Shown: piece by piece, positions 141-25,962 of the stretch | Numbering within the stretch: position 1 is the stretch's first letter | Layout: each line of letters opens with the position of its first letter | Virus record (IMG/VR): IMGVR_UViG_3300034198_006449 | Coordinates: 1-29,464 of that record | Length of the DNA stretch: 29,464 bases | Origin: a virus | Strand: one strand, 5' to 3' | Program-made: the position numbers and the translations under genes | Notes under the pieces: generated by a model | Database searches by the model: none | Told to the model about the DNA's origin: nothing | The model's input: the letters and a program-made list of their open reading frames with translations, nothing else

Positions 141-776
141 TTATATATCTTTTAAAATATTATTGTATCTTCCGAGGAAGTTGGGTTTTTCTTTTTGGCT
201 ACCTTTTAAAGTATAAAAAACGCCGTCTGCTATTTTTCCAATACTCATCCAACTATTATCTAATAATTTATAATTAAATTCTTTTGAAAGATGTAATAAA
301 ACTTCTTGATCCCAACCATATGTCCAGTCTTCTATAGGTTTAGATAATAGTTCTTCTTTAAATCTTTTTCTAAACTTATTGTTATTTCCAAAAGTAACTA
401 ATCCTGCTAACAATCTATCCTTTAGTGGATGTTTTAATACGTGTACATCTTCGCATATTAATACAAATTCTAATATATCGATTTTCTTTCTACATATAGA
501 ATCACAATCGATTGTCATGACTAATTCTTTATTAGGAAATATATCGTAACATTTTAAGAACCTAACAGCCTGATAATAAGCAACTTTACATTCTTCGTTT
601 GGAAAACTAATATAATCGTATATGTATTGAACATTTGGTAACTCAGTTATCTTTTCAGGATTTACAATTAGAACAGTAATTTTCATCATAGGAGAATAAT
701 GATGAATACTCTTTATGAGATTCACTGCCCATTTGTTATAATACTGTGAGTCACATGCTAGTAGTATATTATGCAT
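141..776 (-). CDS. GT-A-like glycosyltransferase, DxD type
   Basis: A 211-residue protein that looks like a nucleotide-diphospho-sugar transferase of the GT-A fold. It opens with a beta strand and a Lys/Ser segment typical of such enzymes (residues 1-25). It carries the sequence VMTIDCDS near 87-93, whose D-C-D fits the metal- and sugar-nucleotide-binding DxD motif. A late WDQEVLLHL segment (about 154-162) resembles the DxE/DQ-type acceptor-side motif of GT8/GT34-like enzymes. It is the last of a run of tightly spaced sugar genes and follows its upstream neighbour with a one-base gap. It is short for a complete transferase, so its partner sugar and acceptor cannot be guessed. Fold assignment is moderately sure; exact family is not. 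Confidence 0.6.
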   Translation of the reverse strand: MHNILLACDSQYYNKWAVNLIKSIHHYSPMMKITVLIVNPEKITELPNVQYIYDYISFPNEECKVAYYQAVRFLKCYDIFPNKELVMTIDCDSICRKKIDILEFVLICEDVHVLKHPLKDRLLAGLVTFGNNNKFRKRFKEELLSKPIEDWTYGWDQEVLLHLSKEFNYKLLDNSWMSIGKIADGVFYTLKGSQKEKPNFLGRYNNILKDI

Positions 777-777
777 A

Positions 778-1509
778 TTAAGGATCCGGTTTAACTAACT
801 TTATTAAATCACCTAATCCCCAATGAGTTAGACCGCTTTCTAAATTATCTTTATTTTTTCTCTTGGCTTTGAAATGTTGCATATATTTTCCTATCCAAGA
901 TTTATTCAATGGCGTACTTGATTTAGGAGCTAAAGGATACAAATCTAGATACTTCACTCCGGATTGTTGTACTGCTATTCCTAATAGTTCTCCGTCATAC
1001 CAACGTTCGCCGTAAGGTATGCCATCGGGTCCAATATAGATACTTTCATATTTCTCTTTTATTTTTTCAAAGTCTGGGTGATCTAAGTTCATCCAAATAG
1101 TTCCTGATTCAAAATATTTTGCCCCCCACGATGCTAAAGGGTATTCTCCTAATATTTTATCAAATAGATCTCTTGGAACAGTGTCAATGAATATCACATC
1201 TGCGTCTATCCAAAACATCTTTCCTGTTTTAATTTTTCTCCAAGCAGCAATTTGAGTAATAGCTTTCTTTGTAAACTTCTGATGTCTAGGATGTTCGCTA
1301 AATCTTGTATCTGCCCATATCTTGTAGAGTTCTTGTACGTCTTTCCAATCTTCAACAACTACTCTAGGATCATTAATATCTAATGTCATATCTTCTAAAT
1401 AAAGATGAAGAATATAGTTGTCGGGGAAACGGTTTAGCCAGGTCTTGATCATTAGTTTACCAATGATGTCGTAATAATTTTGGTTCATTGTAGTTACACA
1501 ATGTATCAT
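778..1509 (-). CDS. GT-A-like glycosyltransferase, DxD type
   Basis: A 243-residue transferase of the GT-A type. From the start chosen here it reads MIHCVTTMNQNYYDIIGKLM, then IKTWLNRFPD. The motif FWIDADVIF at about 99-107 supplies D-A-D (102-104), the expected divalent-metal and sugar-nucleotide site. A TTG codon 12 bases upstream (at 1521) keeps the frame open. The ATG at 1509 is preferred because a GGAG sequence lies 5-8 bases before it and the resulting TAATG overlap with the upstream stop is typical here. The opening pattern (TT-x...Y-x-x-x-G-K-x-M...W) is shared with the genes at 3786-4538 and 8552-9361, so the three look like diverged copies. Donor and acceptor are unknown. Confidence 0.68.
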   Translation of the reverse strand: MIHCVTTMNQNYYDIIGKLMIKTWLNRFPDNYILHLYLEDMTLDINDPRVVVEDWKDVQELYKIWADTRFSEHPRHQKFTKKAITQIAAWRKIKTGKMFWIDADVIFIDTVPRDLFDKILGEYPLASWGAKYFESGTIWMNLDHPDFEKIKEKYESIYIGPDGIPYGERWYDGELLGIAVQQSGVKYLDLYPLAPKSSTPLNKSWIGKYMQHFKAKRKNKDNLESGLTHWGLGDLIKLVKPDP

Positions 1510-2198
1510 TATATTCTCCAATTCTTTTCAATTATAGGATTATGTACATAGGAATTTGGTTTACGTTTACCGGCAAAAAATATAATTGATGTTTTTCCTT
1601 CAATATATTTTTTTATACCCTTAATAAAATCCTCTGGACAATAGTTATCAATAAATCCTATCTTTGCAAATGTTGCTACAAATGCTTGATCACCGTGAGT
1701 ATGTTCATCTTTAACATGTATATGCCATCCTTTAGGCGTAGATGTTATAAATTTTTCCCAAAGATGTGTTGGATTCTTTTTCCAAAATAATATACTACTG
1801 TTGAAAAAATGTTTAGGAGTTATTGCTCTTTTGCTGACAAACGGACTTTTTGCACCCCATATCTCTGTTTTATTATCAGTATTATTAAGTAAATTGTTTA
1901 CCATAATATCTAAAGAATTAATTATTACCATATCTAAATCAAAATACAAACAAGGTCCTGATAGTTGAGGAATCGACCTATACATTTGAACTTTAAGCCA
2001 ATATGCTTGAGGGCTTTGTCCTCTTTCATCAAAAGGTATAGTTTCGCAATGATCTAGTTTTTCGTTAGTTAAACAAACATGTTTATGAGGAATTGTTAAG
2101 TTTCTGGAGATTGAGTTTTGAATTTTTAATAACCAATCCTTTGTATAAAATTCGTTTGGTTGCCAAACGGTTAATACTGTTAATTCATTTGCAGACAT
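1509..2198 (-). CDS. GT-A-like glycosyltransferase, DLD motif
   Basis: A 229-residue protein with features of a nucleotide-sugar transferase. It starts with a strand-like TVLTVWQPN segment, followed by a basic region and the motif CLYFDLDMVI (about 83-92) whose D-L-D (87-89) is a good DxD candidate. Later, HGDQAFVATFA looks like the D-Q acceptor/catalytic segment seen in GT8-like and capsule-related enzymes. The gene overlaps the end of the FkbM-type methyltransferase by 14 bases and its stop overlaps the next start, so it is translated as part of a polycistronic sugar block. It differs from the 'YDxxGK' group of transferases in the window, so it is probably an independent family member. Substrate unknown. 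Confidence 0.66.
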   Translation of the reverse strand: MSANELTVLTVWQPNEFYTKDWLLKIQNSISRNLTIPHKHVCLTNEKLDHCETIPFDERGQSPQAYWLKVQMYRSIPQLSGPCLYFDLDMVIINSLDIMVNNLLNNTDNKTEIWGAKSPFVSKRAITPKHFFNSSILFWKKNPTHLWEKFITSTPKGWHIHVKDEHTHGDQAFVATFAKIGFIDNYCPEDFIKGIKKYIEGKTSIIFFAGKRKPNSYVHNPIIEKNWRI

Positions 2199-2826
2199 AA
2201 ATCTTATCTTTTTTAAAACTTGCTACTCTTTCATATCCAAATTGACTAAGAAAATTTAATATTTCTCTATTACTTTTTGAATATTCTACTTCTAAAATTA
2301 GAACCGGTTTATGCTTTACAAGTGTAGTAACACTACCCATTAATACTTGCATCTCAAAATTTTGTGTGTCAACTTTTATTAAATCTGGAGATAACATTAA
2401 AGAATCTAAAGTAATTATTTCAATTTCTTCGGTAATTAAGTCTCCTGTATGATCTTTAAAATCAACAATACTAAACGCACCACAATTAGTACTATCAGAA
2501 GGTACTGATAAAATATCTTTACTAGATGTTGCTCCAATACCTTTTTTAAAGATTTCTATATTAGGAAATGGTTTAGTATTTTTTGTAAGACATTCAAAGT
2601 TTAAACTAGATGGTTCAAATGATTTTACTTCTTCAAATTTTTTTGAAAATCTAACAGAATGTAAACCTACATTAGCGCCGACATCAACTGCTAAATGAAA
2701 ATTCTTTACATATAATAATGCTTCATTGATACAAGGTTGTTGATAGCTAGTATTAGGAAAGTCTTGTACACTTCGCGACAATAAAGTATCTGAGTCTGGG
2801 AATGCCCAACCTAATACATCTTTCAT
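2185..2826 (-). CDS. FkbM-family SAM-dependent methyltransferase
   Basis: A 213-residue class I methyltransferase of the FkbM type, which in other systems often O-methylates sugars or polyketides. The SAM-binding motif I is AVDVGANVGLHS at about 46-57. It is followed by the acidic motif II FEP (about 70-72), with Glu binding the ribose. A later segment LIKVDTQNFEMQVLMGS matches the family pattern I-K-x-D-x-x-G/F-x-E, although the usual glycine is replaced here (TQNFEM). Its N-terminus is short, so it may be a minimal version. It overlaps the cupin gene by the ATGA junction and the following transferase by 14 bases. Methylation of a phage- or host-encoded glycan is the natural guess from the neighbours; the substrate is not visible. 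Confidence 0.8.
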   Translation of the reverse strand: MKDVLGWAFPDSDTLLSRSVQDFPNTSYQQPCINEALLYVKNFHLAVDVGANVGLHSVRFSKKFEEVKSFEPSSLNFECLTKNTKPFPNIEIFKKGIGATSSKDILSVPSDSTNCGAFSIVDFKDHTGDLITEEIEIITLDSLMLSPDLIKVDTQNFEMQVLMGSVTTLVKHKPVLILEVEYSKSNREILNFLSQFGYERVASFKKDKIYVCK

Positions 2827-3188
2827 TTCTTATCCTTGGCAAACCCGTGTGTTTCTCTAACAATATCGTCTGGGTGTTCGTCAATAAGCAGCATCGGCCA
2901 ATATAATTCAAAAGCAATAGTATCTTCAAGAGCCTCAAATTGATGATATTCACCGGGCTTTGCTACGTGCCAGTCTCCTGCTTCAAGCATAGTTTCGTCG
3001 ATTAGATCGTAGTCATTCTTCCAAGTACGAATTAAGAGTTTTCCACTCTCAACAAAGAATCCGTTCCATTTATGTTTATGAAGATGCTTACTACAAACTC
3101 CACCTTTCTTTGTATCGATACGGTGAAATTCAAGTATACCGTTTGCGTGAATAAGTTCTGTTATGCCCCAAACTTTTCCAGATTTCAT
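2823..3188 (-). CDS. Cupin-domain protein
   Basis: A 121-residue single-domain beta-barrel (cupin) protein. The first cupin motif is recognisable as KHLHKHKWNGFFVESGKLLI (about 35-54), with histidines spaced as in metal-binding cupins. The second is represented by LEAGDWHVAKPGEYHQFEA with a proline-glycine turn and a later histidine. Such proteins include sugar epimerases, isomerases and small-molecule binding proteins. Placement between two methyltransferases and among glycosyltransferases favours a role with a nucleotide sugar or glycan, but that is inference. The ATG at 3188 is 12 bases from the stop of the preceding methyltransferase gene (stop codon 3201-3203) and is chosen as the only sensible start; GGAATAC lies upstream. 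Confidence 0.75.
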   Translation of the reverse strand: MKSGKVWGITELIHANGILEFHRIDTKKGGVCSKHLHKHKWNGFFVESGKLLIRTWKNDYDLIDETMLEAGDWHVAKPGEYHQFEALEDTIAFELYWPMLLIDEHPDDIVRETHGFAKDKK

Positions 3189-3200
3189 AAAGTATTCCTC

Positions 3201-3776
3201 TCAACTTACCTTTATTTCAGCAAGTATACATTTTTTAAATTCTTTAATTATAGAAACAATATTTATATTTTCTTCTAAGTCGGCTTGAGATGTTCTTAAT
3301 GTCATAATAATTTTTGTATTTGAGTCTGAATGTTTTAATATTAAATTTCTATATGTTGATACAGGATAGTGAAACCCGCAAGACAAGTATGATGTAATTA
3401 AATTAAATTTTAAATTATTAGGAATTATAATGTTATCAGCATCGACTAAGTGATAATTTTGAGTGTTCATTTTATCTAATTCGGTCTTTAGGTTTTCTAA
3501 TGGTTGATAAAACTTAAAAGTATCTGCTGTTTTGTGATATTTGCGAAAAGATCTATCATCAGAAATATCATCGTTATTATCTTGATTACCATCGAGTAAC
3601 CATAGTTCTGTACCAAAATTCTCATTGAACATTCTAGATTCCCATGCTAATCCACATCCTATGTCTAATAATACTGTTGGAGGTGTCTTTAAATAGTTTG
3701 ATACTAATTCAAAAGTTTCTTTTTTTAAAGACTGGTACTCTTTAGTTTCCCAGATTTGGATCATATTTAAAGCCAT
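3201..3776 (-). CDS. SAM-dependent methyltransferase (class I)
   Basis: A 191-residue Rossmann-type methyltransferase. Motif I is VLLDIGCGLAWESRMF (about 35-50), the standard glycine-rich SAM loop. A following strand LWLLDGNQDN (about 58-67) supplies the acidic residue expected after beta 2. NLITSYLSCGFHYPV resembles the region after motif IV of small methyltransferases that act on sugars or other small substrates. It is not of the FkbM type, so the island holds two unrelated methyltransferases. An AAGGT sequence lies shortly before the ATG at 3776; a second Met at residue 5 is possible. It is spaced 9 bases from the preceding transferase and runs into the cupin gene. Confidence 0.75.
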   Translation of the reverse strand: MALNMIQIWETKEYQSLKKETFELVSNYLKTPPTVLLDIGCGLAWESRMFNENFGTELWLLDGNQDNNDDISDDRSFRKYHKTADTFKFYQPLENLKTELDKMNTQNYHLVDADNIIIPNNLKFNLITSYLSCGFHYPVSTYRNLILKHSDSNTKIIMTLRTSQADLEENINIVSIIKEFKKCILAEIKVS

Positions 3777-3785
3777 AATAATACC

Positions 3786-4538
3786 TTATTCTGCGGATTT
3801 TTTTCTTCCACTATACTTATCATATTCTGTGCTACTATTACGGAATTTATCTTGTCCTGCATCATGCGCCAATATGCCTCGTACAAGTGGATTAGAAAAA
3901 ACCCCTTTGCCATTTTGAGCTAAGTTAAGTACATCTAAACGAAATTTTTGATAGAGATGAGCTATCCAATATCCATCCCATGATTTTGGTAGAGAATGAA
4001 TATCTAAATTATCATAACCCCGTTGAAGCTGATCTTTAAACATAAGCATTTGATTATGTTTCATATTAAAAGAAATAAGTCCTGTTTCAAAATGAAGTCC
4101 CGCTGAGAGACTCTCAAAGTGTACAGCAAACAAATGATCTTTTGCTAAATTTTTTGCCAAGTCTGAAGGAACAGAATTAAAACTATAAGTATCTCCATCT
4201 AGGAATATGAGATAATCTGTACTTTGATTATTTAAGGCATGGGCCATAGCATAAACTTTATGAGACCATCTAATAGCTTTATCGATACGTGTTTTTGATT
4301 TTTTATTATTAGGATCTATAAGTTTTAAACTTTTGTCTTTAAAAATTTGAAGGCCGGGACAAGCATCATTGATATCTATTTCAAATAGCCTAGGATCTTT
4401 TTCGTCTAGTTTAAATCCTTCAGTGTATACTGTTAAGGAGATATCCTTTGGCCAAAACTTTAACCAAGTACTGACCATTTTCTTACCGTATAGTTCGTAT
4501 CCGTCTATGCTGAATGTAGTAATTACTCTCGAAGTCAT
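3786..4538 (-). CDS. GT-A-like glycosyltransferase, DGD motif
   Basis: A 250-residue transferase sharing its opening (VITTFSIDGYELYGKKM then a W-L-x-x-W-P-K-D segment) with the plus-strand gene at 8552-9361, to which it is the closest relative in the window. The motif LIFLDGDTYSF (about 110-120) gives the D-G-D metal/sugar-nucleotide site (114-116). HAxxLxxxSxDYLIF before it is the usual helix-strand unit. The C-terminus is basic (GRKKSAE). It overlaps the upstream conserved 168-residue gene by ATGA, so the sugar island continues directly into the uvsW companion genes. Identity as a glycosyltransferase is good; donor and acceptor unknown. Confidence 0.7.
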   Translation of the reverse strand: MTSRVITTFSIDGYELYGKKMVSTWLKFWPKDISLTVYTEGFKLDEKDPRLFEIDINDACPGLQIFKDKSLKLIDPNNKKSKTRIDKAIRWSHKVYAMAHALNNQSTDYLIFLDGDTYSFNSVPSDLAKNLAKDHLFAVHFESLSAGLHFETGLISFNMKHNQMLMFKDQLQRGYDNLDIHSLPKSWDGYWIAHLYQKFRLDVLNLAQNGKGVFSNPLVRGILAHDAGQDKFRNSSTEYDKYSGRKKSAE

Positions 4539-5041
4539 AATAGTTTGGCGTATTGTATAATCTCGCTCTGTCTACTTATCTCTTTCACAAAATAAGCACA
4601 TGGTGGATCTTCACCAGTTGTCAATGGTACTGCTAATATTTGTCCATTACGCATTTTTGGAAAATACCATTTAAGATCCATATAGATATTTGTAATCTCT
4701 ACATCATCAAAACTAAATTTAAAACCACTTAATGGATTAAAGATAAAACAATCAAAACCTCTATCTGTTAAAGAAGTAAGCGGAATGACTTCTAAATCAT
4801 TTCCGCTTTCTCTACATCCTACAACAATACTCCAATCTAATGGCATTTCTATTTCGTATTTGCCTACCTTTAATACTACAGCAGGCGCATTAAAACTTTC
4901 TAAAAATATCAATGGTTGAAAAAAGAAATCAGGTTCGTTAGGATTAGAATTATCTAACACCGCGAACCTCATACTGTCGTCTACTTCGTCTGGTAAATTG
5001 TTTAAATCAAATGCATGATTATCTAATGTTAATATTTTCAT
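4535..5041 (-). CDS. Conserved protein next to uvsW, unknown function
   Basis: A 168-residue soluble protein with no transmembrane segment or signal peptide. It has a recognisable conserved core PLIFLESFNAPAVVLKVGKY (about 43-62) followed by EIEMPLDWSIVVG, and ends with a D-L-K-W-F/Y-F-P-K-M-x-N-G segment. From memory, proteins with this core occur in marine T4-like phages, but no biochemical role is known to the writer. Its start overlaps the uvsW stop by ATGA, so it is translationally tied to that helicase. A link to replication or late transcription is only inferred from position. Confidence 0.75.
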   Translation of the reverse strand: MKILTLDNHAFDLNNLPDEVDDSMRFAVLDNSNPNEPDFFFQPLIFLESFNAPAVVLKVGKYEIEMPLDWSIVVGCRESGNDLEVIPLTSLTDRGFDCFIFNPLSGFKFSFDDVEITNIYMDLKWYFPKMRNGQILAVPLTTGEDPPCAYFVKEISRQSEIIQYAKLL

Positions 5042-6510
5042 TCTATGTCTACCTTAGTTAATGTAAAGGGATATTTGGCCTCCTTATAATATCTTTTACG
5101 TTCCGTTAGGTGACGTTTGGCATACTTACAAGTTGATGTTATGTCCCATATTTGTACAAAGTCCTTATCTTCGGCTTTGCGAATTCCTCTACCGATACTT
5201 TGAATTACTCTTACAAATGATTTACCTGGTTCTAATAATACTAGGTTAAAGATTCTAGGAATGTTAATGCCCACGGCGGCAACCCCATATGTTGCAACAA
5301 TAATCTTATCCGTGCTTGTTTTAACCTCATCATATTCTTCTTTGCGATCCTTATTCTTAACTTCGCCGCTGACGAAGACTGCTTCCGGTAGCTCATCGAT
5401 TAAAATCTTTCCACTCTCAATTCTATTAACAAGTACTAAAGTATTTCCTGTTTTAGAAATGTCTTTAATTGTTTTTCCAAGCCACTTCATTCGATCTTCA
5501 TCAGTGACTAGATATTTGTATTCATCAGCATAAGCACGAAATTCTTTTACATCTGTTGTCTGTAATACATTAACATGACAATTACTAAGTACGCCTTGTG
5601 CTTGTAATTCGTGGGCTTGAATTCTATTAATCACATCACCAAGACTACATCTGATTGCTTCAAACTCAAACTTTTCTTTTGGAACAGTTCCAGTCAATCC
5701 CCAACGTATTGGAGCGTTAGCAAGATTAACCGTTAATAATTTTTTAAGTACTTCTGCTTTTGCTTGATGTACTTCGTCGACAATAACAGTACAAACTCCA
5801 TCTAAAAATTCAGCAAGAGTAAGTGTATCGTCGTAATGACCTTTCTTATCTAATATGTTTAGACTCTGCCAAGTACAAATTGTATGTGTCTTGTTTAATT
5901 CTTTACGATCTCCGTAATAAACGCCGACATCTAATTGACAGTTACGGAAGTCTTCTTCTGTTTGTTCTACAAGTCCTTTGTTCGGAACGATAGTAAGTGT
6001 GCGTCCGTATTTCTCACATATCTTACAAAGTGTAGCGGTAATGATTGTTTTACCTGCGCCAGTAGCAAGTTCTTGTAATGCTGTTGACTGTTTAAGAAAG
6101 TTGTTAACAGCATCTACCTGATAATCTCTTAATACAATTGGTTCGCCTTCTTTCACATGTCCTTTAGGCCAAGTTAGCTCTCCCCAATAGTTTGCATCGA
6201 TATCTTCAAATTCGATAGCAGAATGGGTTCGGTGGTCCTCTACCTCAATATCGTAATCCATCGCCTCTAAGAGTGGGATGATCTCGTCTAGTTGATTGAT
6301 ATAGCCAGTACCACCGACCCCAAAGAACGCCACGGTACCGTCCCAGCGTCCTAACCTATAAGAAGGTTGATAGCGGGCCCATGGAACTTCAAACTTAAAT
6401 TTATTAGCAAGTTTACGACGTGCTTCAAGACTAAGTCCTTCAATTTTTATGTTCACTTCATCTTTGATAATAAGTTTACAACTTGGCAATTTTTTTATCC
6501 ATTGATCCAC
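5038..6510 (-). CDS. uvsW: UvsW-like DNA/RNA helicase (recombination, SF2)
   Basis: A 490-residue SF2 helicase very close in length to T4 UvsW (about 500). UvsW unwinds branched DNA and R-loops, and in T4 switches origin-type to recombination-dependent replication. Visible motifs in order: an N-terminal UvsW domain with RYQPSYRLGRWDGTV (about 46-60), the Q-type LRDYQ (127-131), Walker A ATGAGKT (149-155), Walker B DEVH (245-248), motif III GLTGT (271-275), and motif VI QSIGRGIRK near residue 440. The start at 6510 is a GTG with no clear Shine-Dalgarno; no earlier ATG is in frame with homology. It overlaps the upstream 394-residue gene by 35 bases, implying translational coupling. Its position inside a sugar-gene island is unusual. 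Confidence 0.93.
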   Translation of the reverse strand: MDQWIKKLPSCKLIIKDEVNIKIEGLSLEARRKLANKFKFEVPWARYQPSYRLGRWDGTVAFFGVGGTGYINQLDEIIPLLEAMDYDIEVEDHRTHSAIEFEDIDANYWGELTWPKGHVKEGEPIVLRDYQVDAVNNFLKQSTALQELATGAGKTIITATLCKICEKYGRTLTIVPNKGLVEQTEEDFRNCQLDVGVYYGDRKELNKTHTICTWQSLNILDKKGHYDDTLTLAEFLDGVCTVIVDEVHQAKAEVLKKLLTVNLANAPIRWGLTGTVPKEKFEFEAIRCSLGDVINRIQAHELQAQGVLSNCHVNVLQTTDVKEFRAYADEYKYLVTDEDRMKWLGKTIKDISKTGNTLVLVNRIESGKILIDELPEAVFVSGEVKNKDRKEEYDEVKTSTDKIIVATYGVAAVGINIPRIFNLVLLEPGKSFVRVIQSIGRGIRKAEDKDFVQIWDITSTCKYAKRHLTERKRYYKEAKYPFTLTKVDIE

Positions 6511-7660
6511 TTGCTTGTTCAGTATAATACAATATTATTGGATGTGAATCAACCAATTTCTGGCTGCTATAATGAACATAGAATATGTTACTGCTTATAA
6601 TCAAACTAGGTATAAAATTTATTTTATATAGAATTTTAGGAATTTTATGTTTAACAAATACAATCTTAGTATTGTTGTCAACGTGATTATTTAATTTATT
6701 ATCTTTAATTGTTTGGTTAAAGTTAACATTCTTATCGCTACGAAATAAAACAGATATTTCAGAATTATCAATACCAGTATCATTAAACGCAGAAATCCAA
6801 TTGTTAAAATCAGATGATAGCTTTTCATTATCATCTATAAACATAAGAATTGGAAAAGCATCTAATTCTTTTAATGTAGCAGCAATATCGATTTTGTTAT
6901 ATTTTGATACTGCGACGCGAGTCTTATCAACTAAAATTAACTTATTAGAAAGCTCTAATAAATTTAGATTTGATATATATTCTTGAATTTCTGTAGTGAA
7001 ATATAGTCCCATTGACTTAGCTAATAATAAGTTTGATTTAATATTTTCTTTTTTATTAGAAAGAAAATATTCTTCAATATTACGATTACAATTTACTAAT
7101 TCTATAGCGTTTTCTTTTATAGATATACTAGGAATATAGTTTTCAGGATGAGATATTATATCTATAATCTCATTGTACCAATCTAATAATTTTGGTTCAA
7201 TATCAAAATTATGTTCTTTAAAATTGTTAACAATTACATTTAAATTTGATTCATTTAATTTAAATGTGTGACAACGTTCATTAATATTATATATTTTACG
7301 ACCAGGGATCTTATCCAAAATTTTATTAATTGAATTGTCAAAAGGAAATTTTATTGCTATAGTTTCTTTATTCAGAAGAAATATTCTACGAGAAGTATCA
7401 ATTACCCGGAAAGGATATTTGTAGATTGGAAATTCAAGTAAACGATCTAAAGTTTCTATTCTTCCATAAAGTGATTTATTTTCTGTAATAATCTTCACAG
7501 ACAATTCAGCTTGACGTTGTGTTAAAGATAAAGGCTTTTTAAGTTGTGAAGCCATACTGAACAATATACTTCTATCACGTGGCGGCAATCCTTTACGATC
7601 AAAGCCATTCATCGGGTCGTAGATGTATAAGATAAGATCTTCAATTGTTTGTGGAAGCAT
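6476..7660 (-). CDS. Unknown 394-residue protein upstream of uvsW, possible HARP-like annealing-helicase domain
   Basis: A long soluble protein of 394 residues. The N-terminal part has a conserved-looking GLPPRDRSILFSMASQ (about 24-39) and a helix SLTQRQAELSVKIIT. Residues about 84-155 alternate strand and aromatic/basic positions (KETIAIKFPFD, GRKIYNINERCHTFKL) in a way reminiscent of the HARP domain of annealing helicases. The C-terminal half has alternating strands like a degenerate helicase lobe but no Walker A or DEAD-type motif, so ATPase activity is not supported. It overlaps uvsW by 35 bases. A replication or branch-processing partner of UvsW is plausible from location and the weak domain resemblance. 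It is more AT-rich than uvsW itself. Confidence 0.6.
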   Translation of the reverse strand: MLPQTIEDLILYIYDPMNGFDRKGLPPRDRSILFSMASQLKKPLSLTQRQAELSVKIITENKSLYGRIETLDRLLEFPIYKYPFRVIDTSRRIFLLNKETIAIKFPFDNSINKILDKIPGRKIYNINERCHTFKLNESNLNVIVNNFKEHNFDIEPKLLDWYNEIIDIISHPENYIPSISIKENAIELVNCNRNIEEYFLSNKKENIKSNLLLAKSMGLYFTTEIQEYISNLNLLELSNKLILVDKTRVAVSKYNKIDIAATLKELDAFPILMFIDDNEKLSSDFNNWISAFNDTGIDNSEISVLFRSDKNVNFNQTIKDNKLNNHVDNNTKIVFVKHKIPKILYKINFIPSLIISSNIFYVHYSSQKLVDSHPIILYYTEQASGSMDKKIAKL

Positions 7661-7667
7661 AGTATAA

Positions 7668-8519
7668 CTATACTATTATTTTCGATGAAAGTCTATCTAA
7701 AGGTTCACCTGATGCTATTTCTTCTAATGTCCACTCAGTATAAGCAAGATCATTTGCCCACTGTTCTCGGTCTGGCATAAACGGATCTTCAATTCTACTT
7801 AGATCAAAACTAGCAACAGGAGCAGCATAACTATCAATCCCTACAAAAGCCGGAACACCATTTAGAACAGCAACAGGTCCAACATTACTATTATGATTCA
7901 CAACTGCCCAGGCGTTTTGTAGTGCTTCATCAAAATCAAAAGAATCATAAGTTTCTCTTAAATGTTTTGGGTATTCAACAATAACATTTACGTGATAACT
8001 GGTATACATCATTGGAGATCTTGGATGCGGACGAACTACAATGTTTCTGTCAGTTTTCTTTCTAATTTCAGCAATCACCTCATCGAACCATCTGCTTATT
8101 GATGGCATACCTTTCCATTGTTGACTGTTAGGATGTTGGCCACAAATATAAATTGTATTTGCTTGTTTCCAAGGTTTAAGAGATAGATTAAGTTTTTTTC
8201 TTCTTTCAGGTCCGTTATTCTCAGATCCAAAATATCCAGCACCGTTAATTCCGTTTAATGCCACTTTCCAAAGGTTACCTCTGTCAAGTGCTCCTACTTC
8301 GAGTACAATTACAGGTTTATTCTTTCTATGAAAGTGTTCCCAAATCTTTTGGTTAGATGCCATTCTTCCTTGCCATAATACTGACCATATAACAGCAACG
8401 TCGGCATTGGTATCGTGATAAGATACTTCCCAACCTTTTCTTCGAATAGCATTCTCAAAGGCAGCAAAAACAGGTTTACTATTCATTGCTCCGAATTTAT
8501 TAAAGACACCAAATCTCAT
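7668..8519 (-). CDS. Capsule-type GT-B-like glycosyltransferase, paralog A
   Basis: A 283-residue protein starting MRFGVFNKFG. The in-frame GTG at 8549 is rejected as start because the ATG at 8519 begins the recognisable fold. Toward the C-terminus are TDRNIVVRPHPRSP, then NHNSNVGPVAVLNGVPAFVG, then RIEDPFMPDREQW. These are the sugar-nucleotide-binding pattern of capsule-polysaccharide (KpsS/KpsC-like) and GT-B enzymes: R-x-H-P, then N-S and a hydrophobic-G-V/I-P element. Two genes at 9358-10281 and 11188-12006 share the same three blocks, so a tandem family is present. It is divergent from the plus-strand transferase, with 32 bases between start codons. Role: polysaccharide or glycan assembly; donor unknown. 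Confidence 0.7.
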   Translation of the reverse strand: MRFGVFNKFGAMNSKPVFAAFENAIRRKGWEVSYHDTNADVAVIWSVLWQGRMASNQKIWEHFHRKNKPVIVLEVGALDRGNLWKVALNGINGAGYFGSENNGPERRKKLNLSLKPWKQANTIYICGQHPNSQQWKGMPSISRWFDEVIAEIRKKTDRNIVVRPHPRSPMMYTSYHVNVIVEYPKHLRETYDSFDFDEALQNAWAVVNHNSNVGPVAVLNGVPAFVGIDSYAAPVASFDLSRIEDPFMPDREQWANDLAYTEWTLEEIASGEPLDRLSSKIIV

Positions 8520-8551
8520 GATTAAATATATATCTTTAAAAGGAACCACAA

Positions 8552-9361
8552 TTGAAATATGCTGTAATAACTACTTTTCACAAACCTGGATATGATTTAT
8601 ATGGCAAAAGAATGATACAAACATTCATTCAAAATTGGCCTAAAGACGTAACCCTTTATGTATATCATCAGGATGTTATTCCTACAGAGTCTGCTCCTAA
8701 TGTTATAATGAGAGATTTAAATCAAGTTCCTGAATTGACAGCATTTAAAAATAAATGGAAAGATGATCCTAAGGCTAGAGGTTGGACAAACGATAGCACT
8801 AAGCGTCACGATGATAAAAAGAAGAGAGAAGGATTTAAATGGGATGCGATTAGATTTGCTCATAAGGTATATTCGATTTTTCATTGTGTTCGAAATTGCG
8901 ATGCTGATACGTTGTTCTGGATGGATGCAGATATGGTTTGTCATAGTCCTGTTAGCATTGAGTTCATATCTAGGATGGCTCCTGTATCTATCGATATTGG
9001 GTACTTAGGTCGTAAAGATAAGTTTAGTGAGTGCGGATTATATAGTTTAAATCTTCGTAGTAATAAGACACAAGAATTTTTAAAGGAGTTTCAACGTGTA
9101 TATGACGAAGCTGAAAATGGTATCTTTACTATGCGTGAGTGGCATGATAGTTTTGTATTTGATGAAGTCCGCTCTCGTTTCCCTAACCTCAAAAGCAATA
9201 ATTGGAGTGATGGGATTATTACTGGTGAAGGGCATCCTTTAGTTAATTGTGAATGGGGAGCTTATTTAGATCATCTTAAAGGTGAAGAAAGAAAGCGTTT
9301 AGGAAAAAGTAAGAGTCCTGATTTAAGAATAAGAAGAACTGAAGCTTACTGGAAACATTAA
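8552..9361 (+). CDS. GT-A-like glycosyltransferase on the plus strand, DAD motif
   Basis: A 269-residue transferase that begins KYAVITTFHKPGYDLYGKRM after a TTG start codon at 8552. An AGGAA sequence lies 8 bases upstream, supporting TTG as the true start; the nearest ATG (8559) is out of frame. LFWMDADMVC at about 121-130 supplies the D-A-D site (125-127). The nearest relative in the window is the minus-strand gene at 3786-4538. The gene is the only sugar gene on the plus strand. Its stop overlaps the stop of the gene at 9358-10281 by three bases, so it is inserted end to end in the island with no spacer. Inversion or late insertion of a transferase cassette is the likely history. Substrate unknown. 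Confidence 0.72.
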   Translation: MKYAVITTFHKPGYDLYGKRMIQTFIQNWPKDVTLYVYHQDVIPTESAPNVIMRDLNQVPELTAFKNKWKDDPKARGWTNDSTKRHDDKKKREGFKWDAIRFAHKVYSIFHCVRNCDADTLFWMDADMVCHSPVSIEFISRMAPVSIDIGYLGRKDKFSECGLYSLNLRSNKTQEFLKEFQRVYDEAENGIFTMREWHDSFVFDEVRSRFPNLKSNNWSDGIITGEGHPLVNCEWGAYLDHLKGEERKRLGKSKSPDLRIRRTEAYWKH

Positions 9362-10281
9362 GATTTTTTAGCCCAGTTTCTCATATGACTCCATGCTTCT
9401 CCTGATTTAAGATCTTCAAAGTTCCAATGACATTGTGCTAATTTTTGCACCCAGAATAATCTTTCTGGCATTATAGGATTTTCAATATCAGTAAGATTTA
9501 AATTTGCAACTTCTGTAGATTGGCTGTATTCAGGATCTAATACAAAGCAAGGAATACCTTCAATAATACTTGCTACACTTGGGCTACTATTATAAACTAC
9601 AGTTGCCCATGCATCTCTTAGATCTTCTATTAAAGATTTATTTGTACTTAATCTAACATTTTTTCCGATAAGTTGTTTTGAATATATTGCTGATTTTTTA
9701 TCTCCAGGGTGAGTACGAACAACAATAGGACGATCAGTATATTTTCTTATCTCATTGACTGTATCTTTAAAAAAATTAACAATATCTAACCCCTTCATAC
9801 TCCAACCACCGTTTCTTTGTAAGCATATTAGAATATAGGTTCCTTGTGTTCTCCATGGTTTAAGATCAATTCTTAAATCTTTCTTAATCTTTTCCCATCT
9901 AGCAGGATTAGGACTATTATAGCAGTACTCTCCTGTATTAGGAAATATTCCATCATAACTTAATCGAAGATACGATTTACTATTTGCGGGATCTGCGTAT
10001 AGAAATAAATTACTATCAATTATTATAGTTCTACTATTATTTCTTTTTTGGAAATCTAATATCTGTCTTCGAAAGGTTAAGTGTGGCGCTTGTTTACCTT
10101 CTTCATGAACATATCCTTGTATAATTGCTACATCAGATTTGATTAAATTCAAATCATCACTAACAACTCCGTTATCTCCTACAGAATTAACACCAGAGAT
10201 AAAGTTTGTTAGAGAAAGAGGTTTCTCTGGATTTCTATTACTAGCAGGTATTCCTTTAAGATATGATATTACATTTAACAT
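9358..10281 (-). CDS. Capsule-type GT-B-like glycosyltransferase, paralog B
   Basis: A 307-residue relative of the genes at 7668-8519 and 11188-12006. It has the blocks TDRPIVVRTHPGDKKSA, YNSSPSVASIIEGIPCFVLD, and a closing L-x-x-I-E-N-P-I-M-P-E-R-L-F-W then H-W-N-F-E segment. The 'R-T-H-P' histidine and 'Y-N-S-S' serines are as expected for a capsule-polysaccharide transferase-like nucleotide-sugar site. The N-terminal half is less conserved and probably binds the acceptor. Its start codon overlaps the stop of the upstream pyruvyl-transferase-like gene (TAATG). A glycan-assembly function is inferred from family features; the sugar is not known. Confidence 0.7.
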   Translation of the reverse strand: MLNVISYLKGIPASNRNPEKPLSLTNFISGVNSVGDNGVVSDDLNLIKSDVAIIQGYVHEEGKQAPHLTFRRQILDFQKRNNSRTIIIDSNLFLYADPANSKSYLRLSYDGIFPNTGEYCYNSPNPARWEKIKKDLRIDLKPWRTQGTYILICLQRNGGWSMKGLDIVNFFKDTVNEIRKYTDRPIVVRTHPGDKKSAIYSKQLIGKNVRLSTNKSLIEDLRDAWATVVYNSSPSVASIIEGIPCFVLDPEYSQSTEVANLNLTDIENPIMPERLFWVQKLAQCHWNFEDLKSGEAWSHMRNWAKKS

Positions 10282-11201
10282 TATGTTGGATTCATCAAAT
10301 TAATAACATCTTCATAAAATTCTTTATTAGCATTTCTACATTCTTTTAACGCATTAGGGTATGATTCTGCTTCTTCTATTTTATCTATCCAGTCCTTATC
10401 CGTAGCCATAGTCGGAGGATGTTTGAACATATTAAACTTAGTTCCCCAGGGAACACAAACCACCTTTCTTCCAAGTAAGGTTGCCCAATAGACTCCATGG
10501 TAACTATTTGTTACAACAGTTTCACCGGAACCTAAAAATTCAATTATTTGATCCATGTTTTGTCCGGTATTAAGCATTCTAGGAGCGGGAAGTAAATCTA
10601 AACTTCTACCATCGATTAATTTCTTTTTATGTTCAAACCAAACGAATTCATTTTTAATTTCATATTCTTTATCAAAAGCAGGATGCATACAACTCGCACA
10701 AGGTACCCATCTATAATCTTCTACCCAGTCTCTCACGCCAACTAGATGAAATCTATTTAGATATGAAGGATAATTTATAAAGTACGAATCTTCTACCTTA
10801 TCACGAGAATTATGTCCTGCTCCCCACAGTATTCTAGGGCCAATTGTTTTATCTAATTGACTTATAGTATTGAGAGTATATCGTTGAACAAATTCTTTCC
10901 ATTTTTGTATTAATTCTTTATTCTCTACAGATATATTCTTTAATTTAGTTTCTATTACATCTACAAGTAGTTGCTCGTCTGGGTGATTAGTAATACGATC
11001 CATAAGTTTTTCAAAATTTTCATTACCTATTAGACCACCACCGCCGACTATTAAAGTGTCAAGTTGATTCCATGTTGTTTTTCTAACATTATCAATATCA
11101 ACTTTTGTAGTTTTAACATCAGGAAAAAAGTAACGGCAAGGATTAGAATATAAGTCTCCTGGATTGTTTTGATCTATTCTATGGAATTCAATTATATTCA
11201 T
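10281..11201 (-). CDS. Polysaccharide pyruvyl transferase-like protein
   Basis: A 306-residue protein resembling the PF04230 polysaccharide pyruvyl transferase fold, which in bacteria adds ketal pyruvate to surface sugars. Two hallmarks are visible: an N-terminal glycine run TLIVGGGGLIGN (about 49-60), and a C-terminal block TNSYHGVYWATLLGRKVVCV with 'S-Y-H-G' and 'L-G-R/K-x-V-x-V-P', the usual nucleotide-binding and catalytic-histidine region. It sits between two capsule-type transferases and overlaps both, so the three are one translational unit. Pyruvylation of a phage- or host-directed glycan is a reasonable inference, but related folds with other donors exist. Confidence 0.75.
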   Translation of the reverse strand: MNIIEFHRIDQNNPGDLYSNPCRYFFPDVKTTKVDIDNVRKTTWNQLDTLIVGGGGLIGNENFEKLMDRITNHPDEQLLVDVIETKLKNISVENKELIQKWKEFVQRYTLNTISQLDKTIGPRILWGAGHNSRDKVEDSYFINYPSYLNRFHLVGVRDWVEDYRWVPCASCMHPAFDKEYEIKNEFVWFEHKKKLIDGRSLDLLPAPRMLNTGQNMDQIIEFLGSGETVVTNSYHGVYWATLLGRKVVCVPWGTKFNMFKHPPTMATDKDWIDKIEEAESYPNALKECRNANKEFYEDVINLMNPT

Positions 11202-12006
11202 TTAACAATCTCCATGCATTTCCGTTTGCTAATTCTTCATTATTAAATTGACCATAAGACAAGTAACAACACCATTTACGAATAAAATCTGGATCAGGAT
11301 AGAAGGGTGTTTCTATCTTCGATAAATCAGTTAGACAAACATGACTAGCAGCATTTGGAGCGAGTGCAAAAGATGGAATACCATATGCTACTGCTTCAGT
11401 TGCTGCTATGGAATTATAAGTTACGAGAGCGAATATGTTATCAGAATCTAATTGATCATAGATAGTATTTCGTAATGCTCGTTCTTTTCTTAATTTTGCT
11501 TTTGTTCTAACTATTATCGGACGATCTGTATATTTTTTTAAAGTGTTAATAGTCTCTTTTAACCATTCGTCAATATTAATACCATAAAACTTACAAGGCT
11601 TTTCTGATGGTGTTACAACTAATATTGCATTACCGTTCTTTTTCCATCCCGGCCATTTTAACTTGGGAAATTCTAATTGTAATTTTTCCCAACGATCACC
11701 AGGACGATCTTCGATATTACCTAAATGCTGAACATTGTTCTTAACAATACGATGCCATCGTTTTACTGCTTTGGGATTACTTTTTGTAGAATAATTAGCA
11801 AAGTATCCAGTATCCATAAAGTAAAATGTTCTTTTAGTTTCCCAACATTTTTTAATTAATTCTCTTTTAGTAATTCCTCGAAAAGAAATCGGAGTATCGA
11901 AATCTTGATCAAAATTAAACTCTCCAGTTACTACAGTTCCTCCAGATCCTTTTGCAAAGCCTGCTAAGAATCCTTCGTCATCACCGAGGGCATAAAAATT
12001 AGTCAT
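11188..12006 (-). CDS. Capsule-type GT-B-like glycosyltransferase, paralog C (altered R-x-H-P motif)
   Basis: A 272-residue third member of the capsule-type family. Blocks: TDRPIIVRTKAKLRKERA, YNSIAATEAVAYGIPSFALA and DLSKIETPFYPDPDFIRKW. Compared with the two relatives, the histidine of 'R-x-H-P' is replaced (R-T-K-A), which may alter or remove catalysis. Its stop lies 14 bases inside the next gene and its start overlaps the stop of the transferase upstream (ATGACTAA junction), so it is translated in a tight cluster. It may be a catalytically changed copy or use another residue. Confidence 0.66.
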   Translation of the reverse strand: MTNFYALGDDEGFLAGFAKGSGGTVVTGEFNFDQDFDTPISFRGITKRELIKKCWETKRTFYFMDTGYFANYSTKSNPKAVKRWHRIVKNNVQHLGNIEDRPGDRWEKLQLEFPKLKWPGWKKNGNAILVVTPSEKPCKFYGINIDEWLKETINTLKKYTDRPIIVRTKAKLRKERALRNTIYDQLDSDNIFALVTYNSIAATEAVAYGIPSFALAPNAASHVCLTDLSKIETPFYPDPDFIRKWCCYLSYGQFNNEELANGNAWRLLNEYN

Positions 12007-12685
12007 TAAGCATATCCATTAATTCTTTAACCCATTCTTTTTTATATTCACAATTACGATATTCTTTAAACCAAGGTCCGCCTAACGTATGATGTAGTCC
12101 TTTTGGCTTTCCATCTCTTGGTTCTTCATAAACACCAGTACCAGCAAGCCAATTCCATTCGTGACTAAACTCACCAATTTCGTGATCTTCTAACCATCCA
12201 AAGCGATGTAAGAACTTTCCTGTTTCTGTATTAACAAGATCCGTAGTTAGTTTAGCATTACTCGGATGTCCGCAGTTAATAAGCATAACTGAGCTCCAAT
12301 TCTTTCTTGGATAAACAGTTTGAACCTTACCATCCATCTTTACTGATTCTTTAACTTCATAATCATGTTTGGCGCACATGATGGCATATTGATCATCTGC
12401 TAAATCAAAAAGGTTCTGTACATCTTCTAAGAAGATGATATCACAATCAGTAAACATAGCCCAGCCCTTATAATTCATAATAGCCGGAATTAGAAATCTT
12501 GTAAAGGTAAATTCTGTACTCGAGAGCGGGTCAGCTGGTCTTGTATAAAGGCCAACAGTTCTTAGATCTGCTTGTACTAATGGACATACGTCGGCATCGG
12601 GGGATCTGGTTAGTATGCTGTGTTCACTAACTTGATAGGCAATATCCTCTCTAGGATCCCATCCTATAAACACTTTATTCTTCAT
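11999..12685 (-). CDS. GT-A/GT8-like glycosyltransferase, DCD motif
   Basis: A 228-residue protein beginning KNKVFIGWDPREDIAYQVSE, a signature opening of phage- and bacterium-borne GT-A enzymes of the 'x-W-D-P-R' type. The motif AMFTDCDIIFLEDV (about 76-89) carries D-C-D (80-82). A late H-H-T-L-G-G-P-W-F segment resembles the end of such folds. It overlaps the upstream and downstream genes by one and eight bases respectively. It has the most typical sequence of the GT-A set and is good evidence that the cluster is enzymatic rather than decayed. Sugar and acceptor unknown. Confidence 0.78.
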   Translation of the reverse strand: MKNKVFIGWDPREDIAYQVSEHSILTRSPDADVCPLVQADLRTVGLYTRPADPLSSTEFTFTRFLIPAIMNYKGWAMFTDCDIIFLEDVQNLFDLADDQYAIMCAKHDYEVKESVKMDGKVQTVYPRKNWSSVMLINCGHPSNAKLTTDLVNTETGKFLHRFGWLEDHEIGEFSHEWNWLAGTGVYEEPRDGKPKGLHHTLGGPWFKEYRNCEYKKEWVKELMDMLND

Positions 12686-13251
12686 TATTTTTCTCTTAAA
12701 ATATACGTATATTTATTTCTCATTAGGTTTGTATAATGAATTATGTAGGCAGTATCTATATTCTCAGGATTGCTACAATTCCACATTAAAGGAAGTTCTT
12801 TAGTTGAAATATTATTTTCATCTAAAGACCATATGACAACACCATTTTCTCCCTTCATAACATATTTTCTAGGACATTCTTTTTCTTTTTTGGAAATAAT
12901 ATCAGTGATAAATTCTTTACCTCTTGAATTAGTTCTAATAGGTAAAAATCCTGAGTTAGGTCTTCCACTAATTCCTAATACGTAGTATATAGAAGATTCA
13001 TTTATAATCGTCTCTAAAGGAGGACATTTATTAGTAATTTCACAATCGGCATCAATTATTACTACAATATCATAGGTGTTATAAAATTGTTTTACTCCCT
13101 CGATTTTTTTCCAATAATAATTTTCAGAGATTTTATCATCTAAAAGATAACTGTAATTATTTTTTTGACAATACGTCTTTTGACTATCTATACATAACTG
13201 ATATTTTGTAATATAATCAGGTGATGCTACGCAATAGAATATAATATTCAT
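12685..13251 (-). CDS. Short GT-A-like glycosyltransferase, DAD motif
   Basis: A 188-residue, AT-rich protein with the pattern of a compact nucleotide-sugar transferase: NIIFYCVASPDYI at the start, then a helix and DIVVIIDADCEIT (about 61-73), whose D-A-D (67-69) is the metal-site candidate. Further on, SGFLPIRTNSRGKEF resembles a substrate loop. It is short, with roughly half the usual acceptor domain, so it may be a reduced enzyme. It is the first gene of the island downstream of the membrane protein and overlaps both neighbours. Confidence 0.6.
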   Translation of the reverse strand: MNIIFYCVASPDYITKYQLCIDSQKTYCQKNNYSYLLDDKISENYYWKKIEGVKQFYNTYDIVVIIDADCEITNKCPPLETIINESSIYYVLGISGRPNSGFLPIRTNSRGKEFITDIISKKEKECPRKYVMKGENGVVIWSLDENNISTKELPLMWNCSNPENIDTAYIIHYTNLMRNKYTYILREK

Positions 13252-13508
13252 TTTATTGTTTTCTTAAATTCTTCTCTAATTTTAATTTGATATTCGGGAT
13301 TAGGGTGATTATAGAGATGCTGATAATATATTTCAATTATTTTATTAGCAGTTGTACCTTCAAATAAGAAAGGAGCAATGCCATGAATAATACTTGCAAT
13401 GCCGATAGAAATTAACAAAAATCCAGAATAGATTGCCCATTTAAGATGATCAACATAGGTAACCTCGCTTAATTTTAAATGTCTTTTAGATCTTTCTAAT
13501 AAATTCAT
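13248..13508 (-). CDS. Single-pass membrane protein, DUF6356-like
   Basis: A protein of 86 residues from the ATG at 13508. An upstream ATG at 13538 is in frame, but a strong GGAGG (13519-13523, read on the minus strand) sits ten bases before 13508, so the shorter start is chosen. The sequence HLKWAIYSGFLLISIGIASI then IHGIAPFLFEGT contains one clear hydrophobic helix. The C-terminus has YNHPNPEYQIKIREEFKK. The pattern 'HLKWA...G...L...GIASIIH...P.LF.....A...I' plus 'HPNPEY' fits the DUF6356 family, seen in bacteria and marine phages and of unknown function. It ends at an ATGA overlap with the following transferase. Confidence 0.72.
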   Translation of the reverse strand: MNLLERSKRHLKLSEVTYVDHLKWAIYSGFLLISIGIASIIHGIAPFLFEGTTANKIIEIYYQHLYNHPNPEYQIKIREEFKKTIK

Positions 13509-13535
13509 AAAGAAGCATCCTCCATACCTGCTACA

Positions 13536-13543
13536 CATAAATA
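13536..13543 (+). promoter_or_regulatory. Late-promoter-like CATAAATA before the homing endonuclease
   Basis: Plus-strand CATAAATA followed by ATACT and the ATG at 13549. The sequence ATAAATAATAC is identical to that before the 756-residue gene. No Shine-Dalgarno precedes the ATG, so a leaderless late mRNA is suggested. Confidence 0.5.
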
Positions 13544-13548
13544 ATACT

Positions 13549-14235
13549 ATGAAGCACTATATTTACAAAACATCTTCGCCAAGCAGTAAATTTTATATCG
13601 GAAGACACTCGACTAAAAAAGAAAATGATACTTATTTAGGTTCAGGAAAATGGATTAAACAAGTTAAAGATAAATCTATTTTAACTGTAGAAATACTCGA
13701 GTATGCTAATTCATTTGAAGAATTATTATTGCTAGAAGAACAATATATTTTACAGCATATTAATGATCCTAATAATATGAATTATAATAATAAATCAACA
13801 GGATGGGCATCTGGTGAGTTAAGTTGGGCGCACACTGAAGAAGCAAAATCATTAAGAAGAAAACTTAGATTAGGTAAATCTTTCGACGAGTTATATGGTA
13901 AAGAACAATCTGTAATTATTAAAGAAAAAATAAGAAGTAAGGCAAGAGGTAGAAAGAGAGACAAAGCATGGAACACTGGATTAACTAAAGAAACCTCACA
14001 ATCGATTAAGTCTATGTCAGATTCAAAAATAGGAAAAATTCCTTGGAATAAAGGAATAAACACTGGTATTTCTACATTTAGTGGAAAAGAACATACAGAA
14101 AGTTCTATCAAAAAAATGAGAGAAAAACAAAGACTGAATAGAATTCAAAACCGTATAACCTGTGAGAATTGTGGTAAAACTTTAGATAAAGCTAATTATG
14201 TAAGATATCACGGAGATAGATGTAAATCAAAGTGA
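13549..14235 (+). CDS. GIY-YIG homing endonuclease with NUMOD3-like repeats and C-terminal zinc finger
   Basis: A 228-residue free-standing homing endonuclease of the T4 Seg type. The catalytic domain is at the N-terminus: YIY (4-6), KFYIGRHSTKK with Y-I-G (16-18) and the catalytic-position Arg19, then TYLGSGKWI. After it are basic, repeated segments (WAHTEEAKSLRRKLRLGK; PWNKGINTGISTFSGK) typical of NUMOD3 DNA-binding motifs. At the end is a C-x2-C-x12-H-x3-C zinc finger (Cys205, Cys208, His221, Cys225). The gene is on the plus strand between minus-strand genes, is AT-rich, and overlaps the end of the opposite gene by nine bases. Its own late-promoter-like motif lies five bases before the ATG. 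It probably cuts an allele of a nearby gene lacking this insertion. Confidence 0.88.
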   Translation: MKHYIYKTSSPSSKFYIGRHSTKKENDTYLGSGKWIKQVKDKSILTVEILEYANSFEELLLLEEQYILQHINDPNNMNYNNKSTGWASGELSWAHTEEAKSLRRKLRLGKSFDELYGKEQSVIIKEKIRSKARGRKRDKAWNTGLTKETSQSIKSMSDSKIGKIPWNKGINTGISTFSGKEHTESSIKKMREKQRLNRIQNRITCENCGKTLDKANYVRYHGDRCKSK

Positions 14236-25934: not shown

Positions 25935-25962
25935 ATTCAGGGGCTTAAACTAGCCCCTGAAT
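25935..25962 (-). repeat. Stem-loop spanning the sheath stop codon
   Basis: A perfect ten-base inverted repeat, ATTCAGGGGC and GCCCCTGAAT, with an eight-base loop that contains the sheath TAA stop. No U-tract follows on the minus strand, so it may act in mRNA processing or stability, or in weak termination. Confidence 0.7.

Follow-up and report, generated by a model that had tools for sequence, protein, structure and literature searches.

The virus record IMGVR_UViG_3300034198_006449 is a genome fragment of 29,464 bases, analyzed here over its entire length (the window), that carries an island of 14 carbohydrate-related genes at positions 141 to 13251, with the helicase gene uvsW and two companions, g08 and g10, in its middle. 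Genes are numbered from left to right, from g01 (141 to 776) to g33 (25945 to 29385). All of the open reading frames (ORFs) that an earlier reading of the letters alone (the sequence-only reading) had assigned to this island are present, 13 on the minus strand and one (8552 to 9361) on the plus strand. The island reaches the edge of the record, so its downstream limit lies beyond view. The 14 genes had been taken as one unit; comparison with related phages replaces that unit with six core genes (g16, g15, g13, g12, g11, and g05) and eight variable ones (g01, g02, g03, g04, g06, g07, g14, and g17). The core holds a fixed place around uvsW and consists of two glycosyltransferases (GTs) of the GT-A type, three proteins of the GT-B fold, and one cupin.

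The first member of the core, g16 (11999 to 12685, minus strand), is a GT8-like GT-A protein with a DxD motif (phrog_28018, 1e-44; weak PF01501 match, 3.9e-4). Its partner, g15 (11188 to 12006, minus strand), overlaps it by 8 nucleotides (nt) and is a GT-B-fold protein, as are g13 (9358 to 10281, minus strand) and g11 (7668 to 8519, minus strand). The g11 ORF opens at 8549 (7668 to 8549), and its likely start is 8519, at an invariant Met11. The GT-A transferase g12 (8552 to 9361, plus strand) contains an invariant WMDAD. The cupin g05 (2823 to 3188, minus strand), downstream of uvsW-g08, is WbuC/FnlC-like (WbuC cupin, 3.9e-4) and 57 to 95% identical to the copies in relatives; its earlier identification as a cupin holds, with a PF07883 match just under the cutoff (5.9e-6).

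The nearest cultured kin of the window are jumbo phages of the PA5oct type (Arenbergviridae), at 56% for TerL and 54% for uvsW. These two markers place the phage in the T4-like jumbo group, and the uvsX-uvsY-uvsW synteny is kept. A megablast search of the window against cultured phages gave no match; close metagenomic relatives lie on contigs of up to 383 kb. Relatives were sampled through uvsW (80) and through a g15 profile (80). The g15 profile confirmed at least 584 candidate stretches among viral contigs, so the g15 family is common in them. SAR11, an abundant bacterium of aquatic habitats, was considered as the host of this phage and not adopted; g16 homologues occur in other Pseudomonadota as well.

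In island-free phages the gene order is uvsY-g10-uvsW-g08. In island-bearing phages it is uvsY, cl7, g16/g15 (with one to three g15-type genes), g13, cargo, g12 (mostly on the opposite strand), cl16, g11, g10, uvsW, g08, further cargo, and g05. The family cl7 is a 254-amino-acid fusion of an HldE-type nucleotidyltransferase and a mannose-6-phosphate isomerase-type cupin; it stands first in the operon of most relatives and is missing from the window and from L002, its closest relative. Six relatives (L011, L014, L015, L016, L019, and L025) have cl7 without GTs between uvsY and g10, and these could be either remnants of the island or its forerunners. The family cl16 (L063, 7466 to 7867), which is absent from the window, is a conserved 133-amino-acid protein with no Pfam match that heads a minus-strand operon with g12 in relatives.

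Mapped onto a tree of uvsW from 86 phages, island presence requires 5 changes, compared with 28.7 when labels are shuffled, and the island is found in 38 of the 41 members of one clade and in 2 of the 45 members of its sister clade. In that tree the nearest neighbors of the window are L002 and L003, which bear the island, followed by L005, which is empty, so island losses occur. All core genes lie at a single locus on a 195-kb island-bearing contig, and none are found on a 194-kb island-free contig. Distances in individual core genes follow those in uvsW (Spearman 0.5 to 0.8), which is weak evidence from only 11 to 12 taxa, and the correlation between g15 and g16 distances across loci is poor (0.09), a probable result of mixing tandem g15 paralogues. 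Judged from these sequence comparisons, the island core is a clade marker of jumbo T4-like phages; it is neither absent from relatives nor scrambled but syntenic in dozens of them.

The variable genes, all on the minus strand, are gained and lost even among phages that are 93 to 97% identical in uvsW. They include the GT-A or GT-A-like genes g01 (DCD in sequence; 37% to L048 only), g02 (778 to 1521; DxD; 56% to L003), g03 (1509 to 2198; phrog_1962 glycosyltransferase, 3.9e-13), g07 (3786 to 4538; DxD; 68% to L003 and about 30% elsewhere, clustering with g12 and g02), and g17 (12685 to 13251; DxD; without homologues among the first 80 relatives). The predicted polysaccharide pyruvyl transferase, g14 (10281 to 11201), is borne out by PF04230 (26.7 bits against a cutoff of 25.3, in the C-terminal part only) and recurs at 8 other loci. 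Two methyltransferases had been proposed, of which the FkbM-type g04 (2185 to 2826; PF05050, 2.6e-11) is firm and g06 (3201 to 3776; phrog_4752, E value of 6.5e-4; four other loci) is weak and stays putative. Cargo in relatives further includes a GDP-mannose dehydratase, an NAD-dependent epimerase, a UDP-sugar dehydrogenase, GT25, and GT17. Sugar-nucleotide genes are found in relatives (the HldE-type nucleotidyltransferase with its isomerase-type cupin, the GDP-mannose dehydratase, and the UDP-sugar dehydrogenase), and none are found in the window.

The replacement of 8 of the 14 genes among such close phages, together with a GIY-YIG homing-endonuclease-like gene at the island edge, could mean that the cargo is mostly a selfish or neutral accretion at a recombination hot spot beside uvsY-uvsW, with no single joint function. 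This explanation is improbable, in that the core is kept in order with invariant motifs across the clade, some of its genes are fused, and its operons have promoter motifs.

A DxD following a hydrophobic stretch is present in all seven proteins that had been called GT-A-like; the strict pattern holds for six of them, and in shuffled sequences the joint probability of a DxD in all seven is 6e-6. In a fold search, the model of g12 predicted with AlphaFold2 (AF2) matched GT8/GT6-type GT-A structures with an E value of about 1e-7. The three GT-B-fold proteins form one paralogous family (profile-profile E values of 3e-40, linking g11 to g13, and 3e-26), and the core motifs are invariant across relatives. 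Sequence profiles of g15, g13, and g12 gave nothing convincing against PDB chains, and the fold search alone succeeded: the 27 top PDB matches of the g13 AF2 model (predicted local distance difference test, 89) are all β-Kdo transferases of capsule or O-antigen synthesis. The best E value, among KpsC, WbbB, and KrkA, is 5e-8 at a template modeling score of about 0.5, as for a shared divergent GT-B fold. The same fold was seen in BFVD matches to four proteins of the giant algal virus Tetraselmis virus 1 (A0A2P0VNK4, VP54, VP72, and VP74).

Retaining β-Kdo transferases use an aspartate nucleophile in a QXXXD motif and bind CMP through a (K/R)XHP nucleotide motif (PMC10148158 and PMC12887879). 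The island proteins have the overall fold in common with GT99 (WbbB), GT107 (KpsC), and GT140 (KrkA), and (K/R)XHP is kept in g11 (RPHP, within an invariant RPHPR) and g13 (RTHP) but not in g15 (RTKA). They differ from these families in the catalytic aspartate, which is replaced by glycine in g13 (QRNGG) and by serine in g11 (QHPNS), the motif being absent from g15. Relatives of g13 in SAR11 (L170 to L177) keep QXXXD. The earlier identification of three capsule-type GT-B-like proteins thus holds for the fold and not for the catalytic residue, and membership in the retaining β-Kdo transferase families was rejected for g13, g11, and g15. Because the catalytic aspartate is replaced, these proteins, as far as their sequences and models tell, must differ from Kdo transferases in mechanism or donor, or else be noncatalytic. 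Gene content does not support Kdo as the transferred sugar; a CMP-Kdo synthetase is absent from the island-bearing records and occurs once in an island-free one. A Kdo transferase fold without its one absolutely conserved catalytic residue is a mechanistic puzzle, for which nucleophile-bearing bacterial relatives are available for comparison.

The g16 gene adjoins a same-strand g15-type gene in 93 of 98 homologues, and the two are fused at 15 loci, in several lengths, including in L002. The pairing extends to cultured phages. In the Caulobacter phages CcrColossus and C1 (Dolichocephalovirinae), the order is tail genes, GTs, g15, g16, a GT9-like gene, and endolysin/lysozyme, with an FkbM gene in C1, where the g15/g16 cousins are gp164 and gp165; these differ from the island here in belonging to another phage group, in the placement of the cassette between tail and lysis genes, and in having only 26 to 36% identity. 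In the podovirus ctDrO704, a g16-like gene and an FkbM gene lie between the capsid and stabilization genes, and in ct7QV12 g12- and g11-type genes adjoin the terminase. Cousins in the cyanophage S-SCSM2R are located elsewhere than in such tail/lysis, capsid, or terminase settings; the cluster there (L084, 9995 to 13520) consists of a g16 homologue, two hypothetical proteins, and adjacent KdsB and KdsA.

Cousins were also found in bacteria. The g13 profile matches 62 of 162 Pelagibacterales genomes, and two SAR11 chromosomes (L187 and L188) contain one cluster of g16-type (60 to 61% to the window), g15-, g12-, and g13-type genes. This cassette differs from the phage island in including a tetratricopeptide repeat (TPR) protein and in that its g13 relatives keep QXXXD. 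A lone g13 homologue on another SAR11 chromosome (L168, 9992 to 10900; L169), 45% identical and located between guaA and a thioredoxin-like gene, has the phage-type QRNGG, and its sequence points to a likely phage-to-host transfer. Among other Pseudomonadota, g16 matches 26 of 398, and one of these homologues shares 63% identity with a phage-borne copy. A TPR-GT41 protein of the O-GlcNAc-transferase family (PF13844, 1.3e-49) neighbors the g16 homologue in one bacterium.

Cyanophage S-PM2 has NATAAATA as its late promoter, and the late promoter of T4 is close to it (PMC2984593). We counted NATAAATA within 65 nt upstream of gene starts, where the background is 0.5%. It precedes cl7 in 50 of 68 GT-bearing loci and in 0 of the 5 where cl7 occurs without GTs, and it precedes cl16 in 19 of 27 loci; cl7 and cl16 head the plus- and minus-strand GT operons of relatives, respectively. 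The putative structural gene cl15 has it at a similar rate (27 of 34). It was found before none of the uvsX (0 of 78), uvsY (0 of 107), or uvsW (0 of 92) genes of relatives and likewise before none of g08 or g10. The sequences counted are related and P values overstate the enrichment, but the agreement extends over several unrelated gene families. The window has AATAAATA (12710 to 12717, minus strand) 32 nt before g16, much like TATAAATA, which lies 31 nt before the tail tube gene, and in L002 TATAAATA precedes the g16-g15 fusion. Across the whole window TATAAATA is not enriched (3 occurrences against 5.4 expected), and only the positional analysis over relatives is informative. From these motifs we infer that the island would be expressed late in the window phage.

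Late expression bears on what the island might modify. Since the operons have late-promoter motifs in relatives, the envelope export families searched for are absent, and cousins are located within structural modules, we favor decoration of virion proteins and give about an even chance to the proposal that the island is a late glycan module acting on a virion protein. These families were a lipid-priming transferase (PF02397), a Wzx-type flippase (PF01943), and an ABC-2 exporter (PF01061), none of which was found in 18 island-bearing records (about 1.7 Mb, in fragments) although positive controls matched. No hydrophobic membrane-like segment was found in the island enzymes.

The main rival, which we consider possible but less probable, is that the island alters lipopolysaccharide (LPS) or another surface glycan of the host to exclude competitors or to stop progeny from readsorbing to debris. 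It draws on the SAR11 chromosomal counterpart with its g16, g15, g12, and g13 homologues, on GT25 and the capsule-type folds in the island and its cargo, and on the published view of pelagimyophages and cyanophages. Promoter motifs that are late rather than early fit superinfection exclusion poorly, and the placement of cousins within structural modules likewise speaks for the virion. The missing priming, flippase, and exporter genes count against a host-surface role as well, except that mere editing of host precursors needs none of them.

Several observations weigh against a virion target. Late expression also fits late masking of host receptors, which would free progeny. The collinear SAR11 counterpart may make a cell-surface glycan, GT25 among the cargo is an LPS family, and the authors of a pelagimyophage survey favor O-chain modification (PMC7029224). 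The GT-B-fold proteins, without the known nucleophile, could be noncatalytic. Some cousins lie outside structural modules (Mosig EXVC030M and DLP_6), and a search for Ser/Thr-rich acceptors found no difference between the island-bearing G013 and the island-free G015.

Two further targets appear unlikely. The transferases might build a sugar chain on modified phage bases and so block host nucleases, as DNA-modifying phage GTs are known and the island flanks recombination genes. No member of the thymidylate synthase/dCMP hydroxymethylase family (PF00303) was found in 16 related records, in a search in which positive controls matched; a search for TET/JBP dioxygenases had zero matches, which is weak evidence since no control matched either. 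Late promoter motifs, the methyltransferase, pyruvyl, and cupin cargo, and the Caulobacter phage context also suit DNA hypermodification less well, and we regard it as improbable. The island might instead make a sugar product that is secreted or diffuses away, for example a signal or an antibiotic; a precedent is the sugar- and amino acid-derived metabolite suggested for other gene clusters of jumbo cyanophages (PMC7824862). With the three exporter and lipid carrier families absent from the 18 records and a core of transferases rather than tailoring enzymes, such a product is very unlikely and is the least supported of the three uses suggested by the sequence-only reading, the other two being virion decoration, favored here, and host surface change.

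For decoration of the virion, the genes would encode a cytoplasmic, late-expressed glycan assembly module whose acceptor is a virion protein produced simultaneously in large amounts; both the joint glycan and this acceptor are predictions. The core enzymes would add successive sugars to the acceptor to give a constant stem. Variable ends would come from the swapped cargo, namely the remaining GTs, the FkbM-type and further methyltransferases, and the pyruvyl transferase, to which GDP-mannose dehydratase, UDP-sugar dehydrogenase, and GT25 may contribute in relatives. The window phage would draw activated sugars from its host, as the nucleotidyltransferase-cupin gene found in most relatives is missing from it. 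Its capsid, tail, or fibers would probably bear a sugar coat that varies and that either changes adsorption or conceals the particle. The sequence-only reading is partly borne out. A coordinated glycan function is supported, and neither outcome that it named as refuting was observed, the GT-A catalytic motifs being present and the core syntenic; but only six of the 14 genes are conserved as a unit, the GT-B-fold proteins lack the nucleophile of their nearest solved relatives, and a sugar-activating gene is missing from the window. More tentatively, an aquatic jumbo phage clade may inherit a late-acting set of virion glycan enzymes that keeps the stem constant, swaps the ends, and has been exchanged with SAR11-type hosts; its Kdo transferase-fold proteins, having lost the nucleophile, would work by another mechanism or with other donors.

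Clusters of GT and LPS genes are known from cyanophages and pelagimyophages of the P-SSM2 type (PMC2984593, PMC7824862, and PMC7029224), and the earlier suggestion of an undescribed system was too strong. Those clusters resemble the island in that hypervariable regions of T4-like phages hold many GTs accompanied by cupins or methyltransferases. The island here is set apart by a fixed six-gene core with paired or fused GT-A and GT-B genes and late promoter motifs, by clade inheritance at uvsY-uvsW in jumbo phages, and by a window without a sugar-nucleotide pathway. Mycobacteriophage virion glycosylation (Freeman et al. 2023, as cited in PMC12619734) is similar in that the phage encodes the transferases and their target is proposed to be the virion; within the compass of that citation, the phages here differ in being unrelated, in having far more enzymes, and in that their virion glycan is a prediction.

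The GTs of aquatic phages are usually taken to be modifiers of host LPS or of DNA. The present case offers a testable alternative: the clade-inherited core, the late motifs, and the absence of the tested envelope and DNA hydroxymethylation families predict sugars on virion proteins. Since cultured Caulobacter phages carry the paired genes, the question is open to laboratory settlement.

The backbone genes within the island lie on the minus strand. The uvsW gene (5038 to 6510; PF04851 and UvsW_N), on which the tree was built, anchors the insertion site and stands outside the glycan pathway. The g08 gene (4535 to 5041; phrog_11279) is present in 79 of 80 relatives, and g10 (6476 to 7660), a 394-amino-acid protein without assigned function, is always syntenic with uvsW, including in island-free phages; it overlaps the uvsW start and diverges about 7 times as much as uvsW. 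At the island edge beside uvsY, the GIY-YIG gene (13549 to 14235, plus strand; phrog_314, 6e-22) occupies the spot where most relatives have cl7 and may have helped to displace it. Next to it, a DUF6356 protein (13248 to 13538, minus strand; PF19883, 1.5e-11) with one membrane-like segment is absent from the first 80 relatives.

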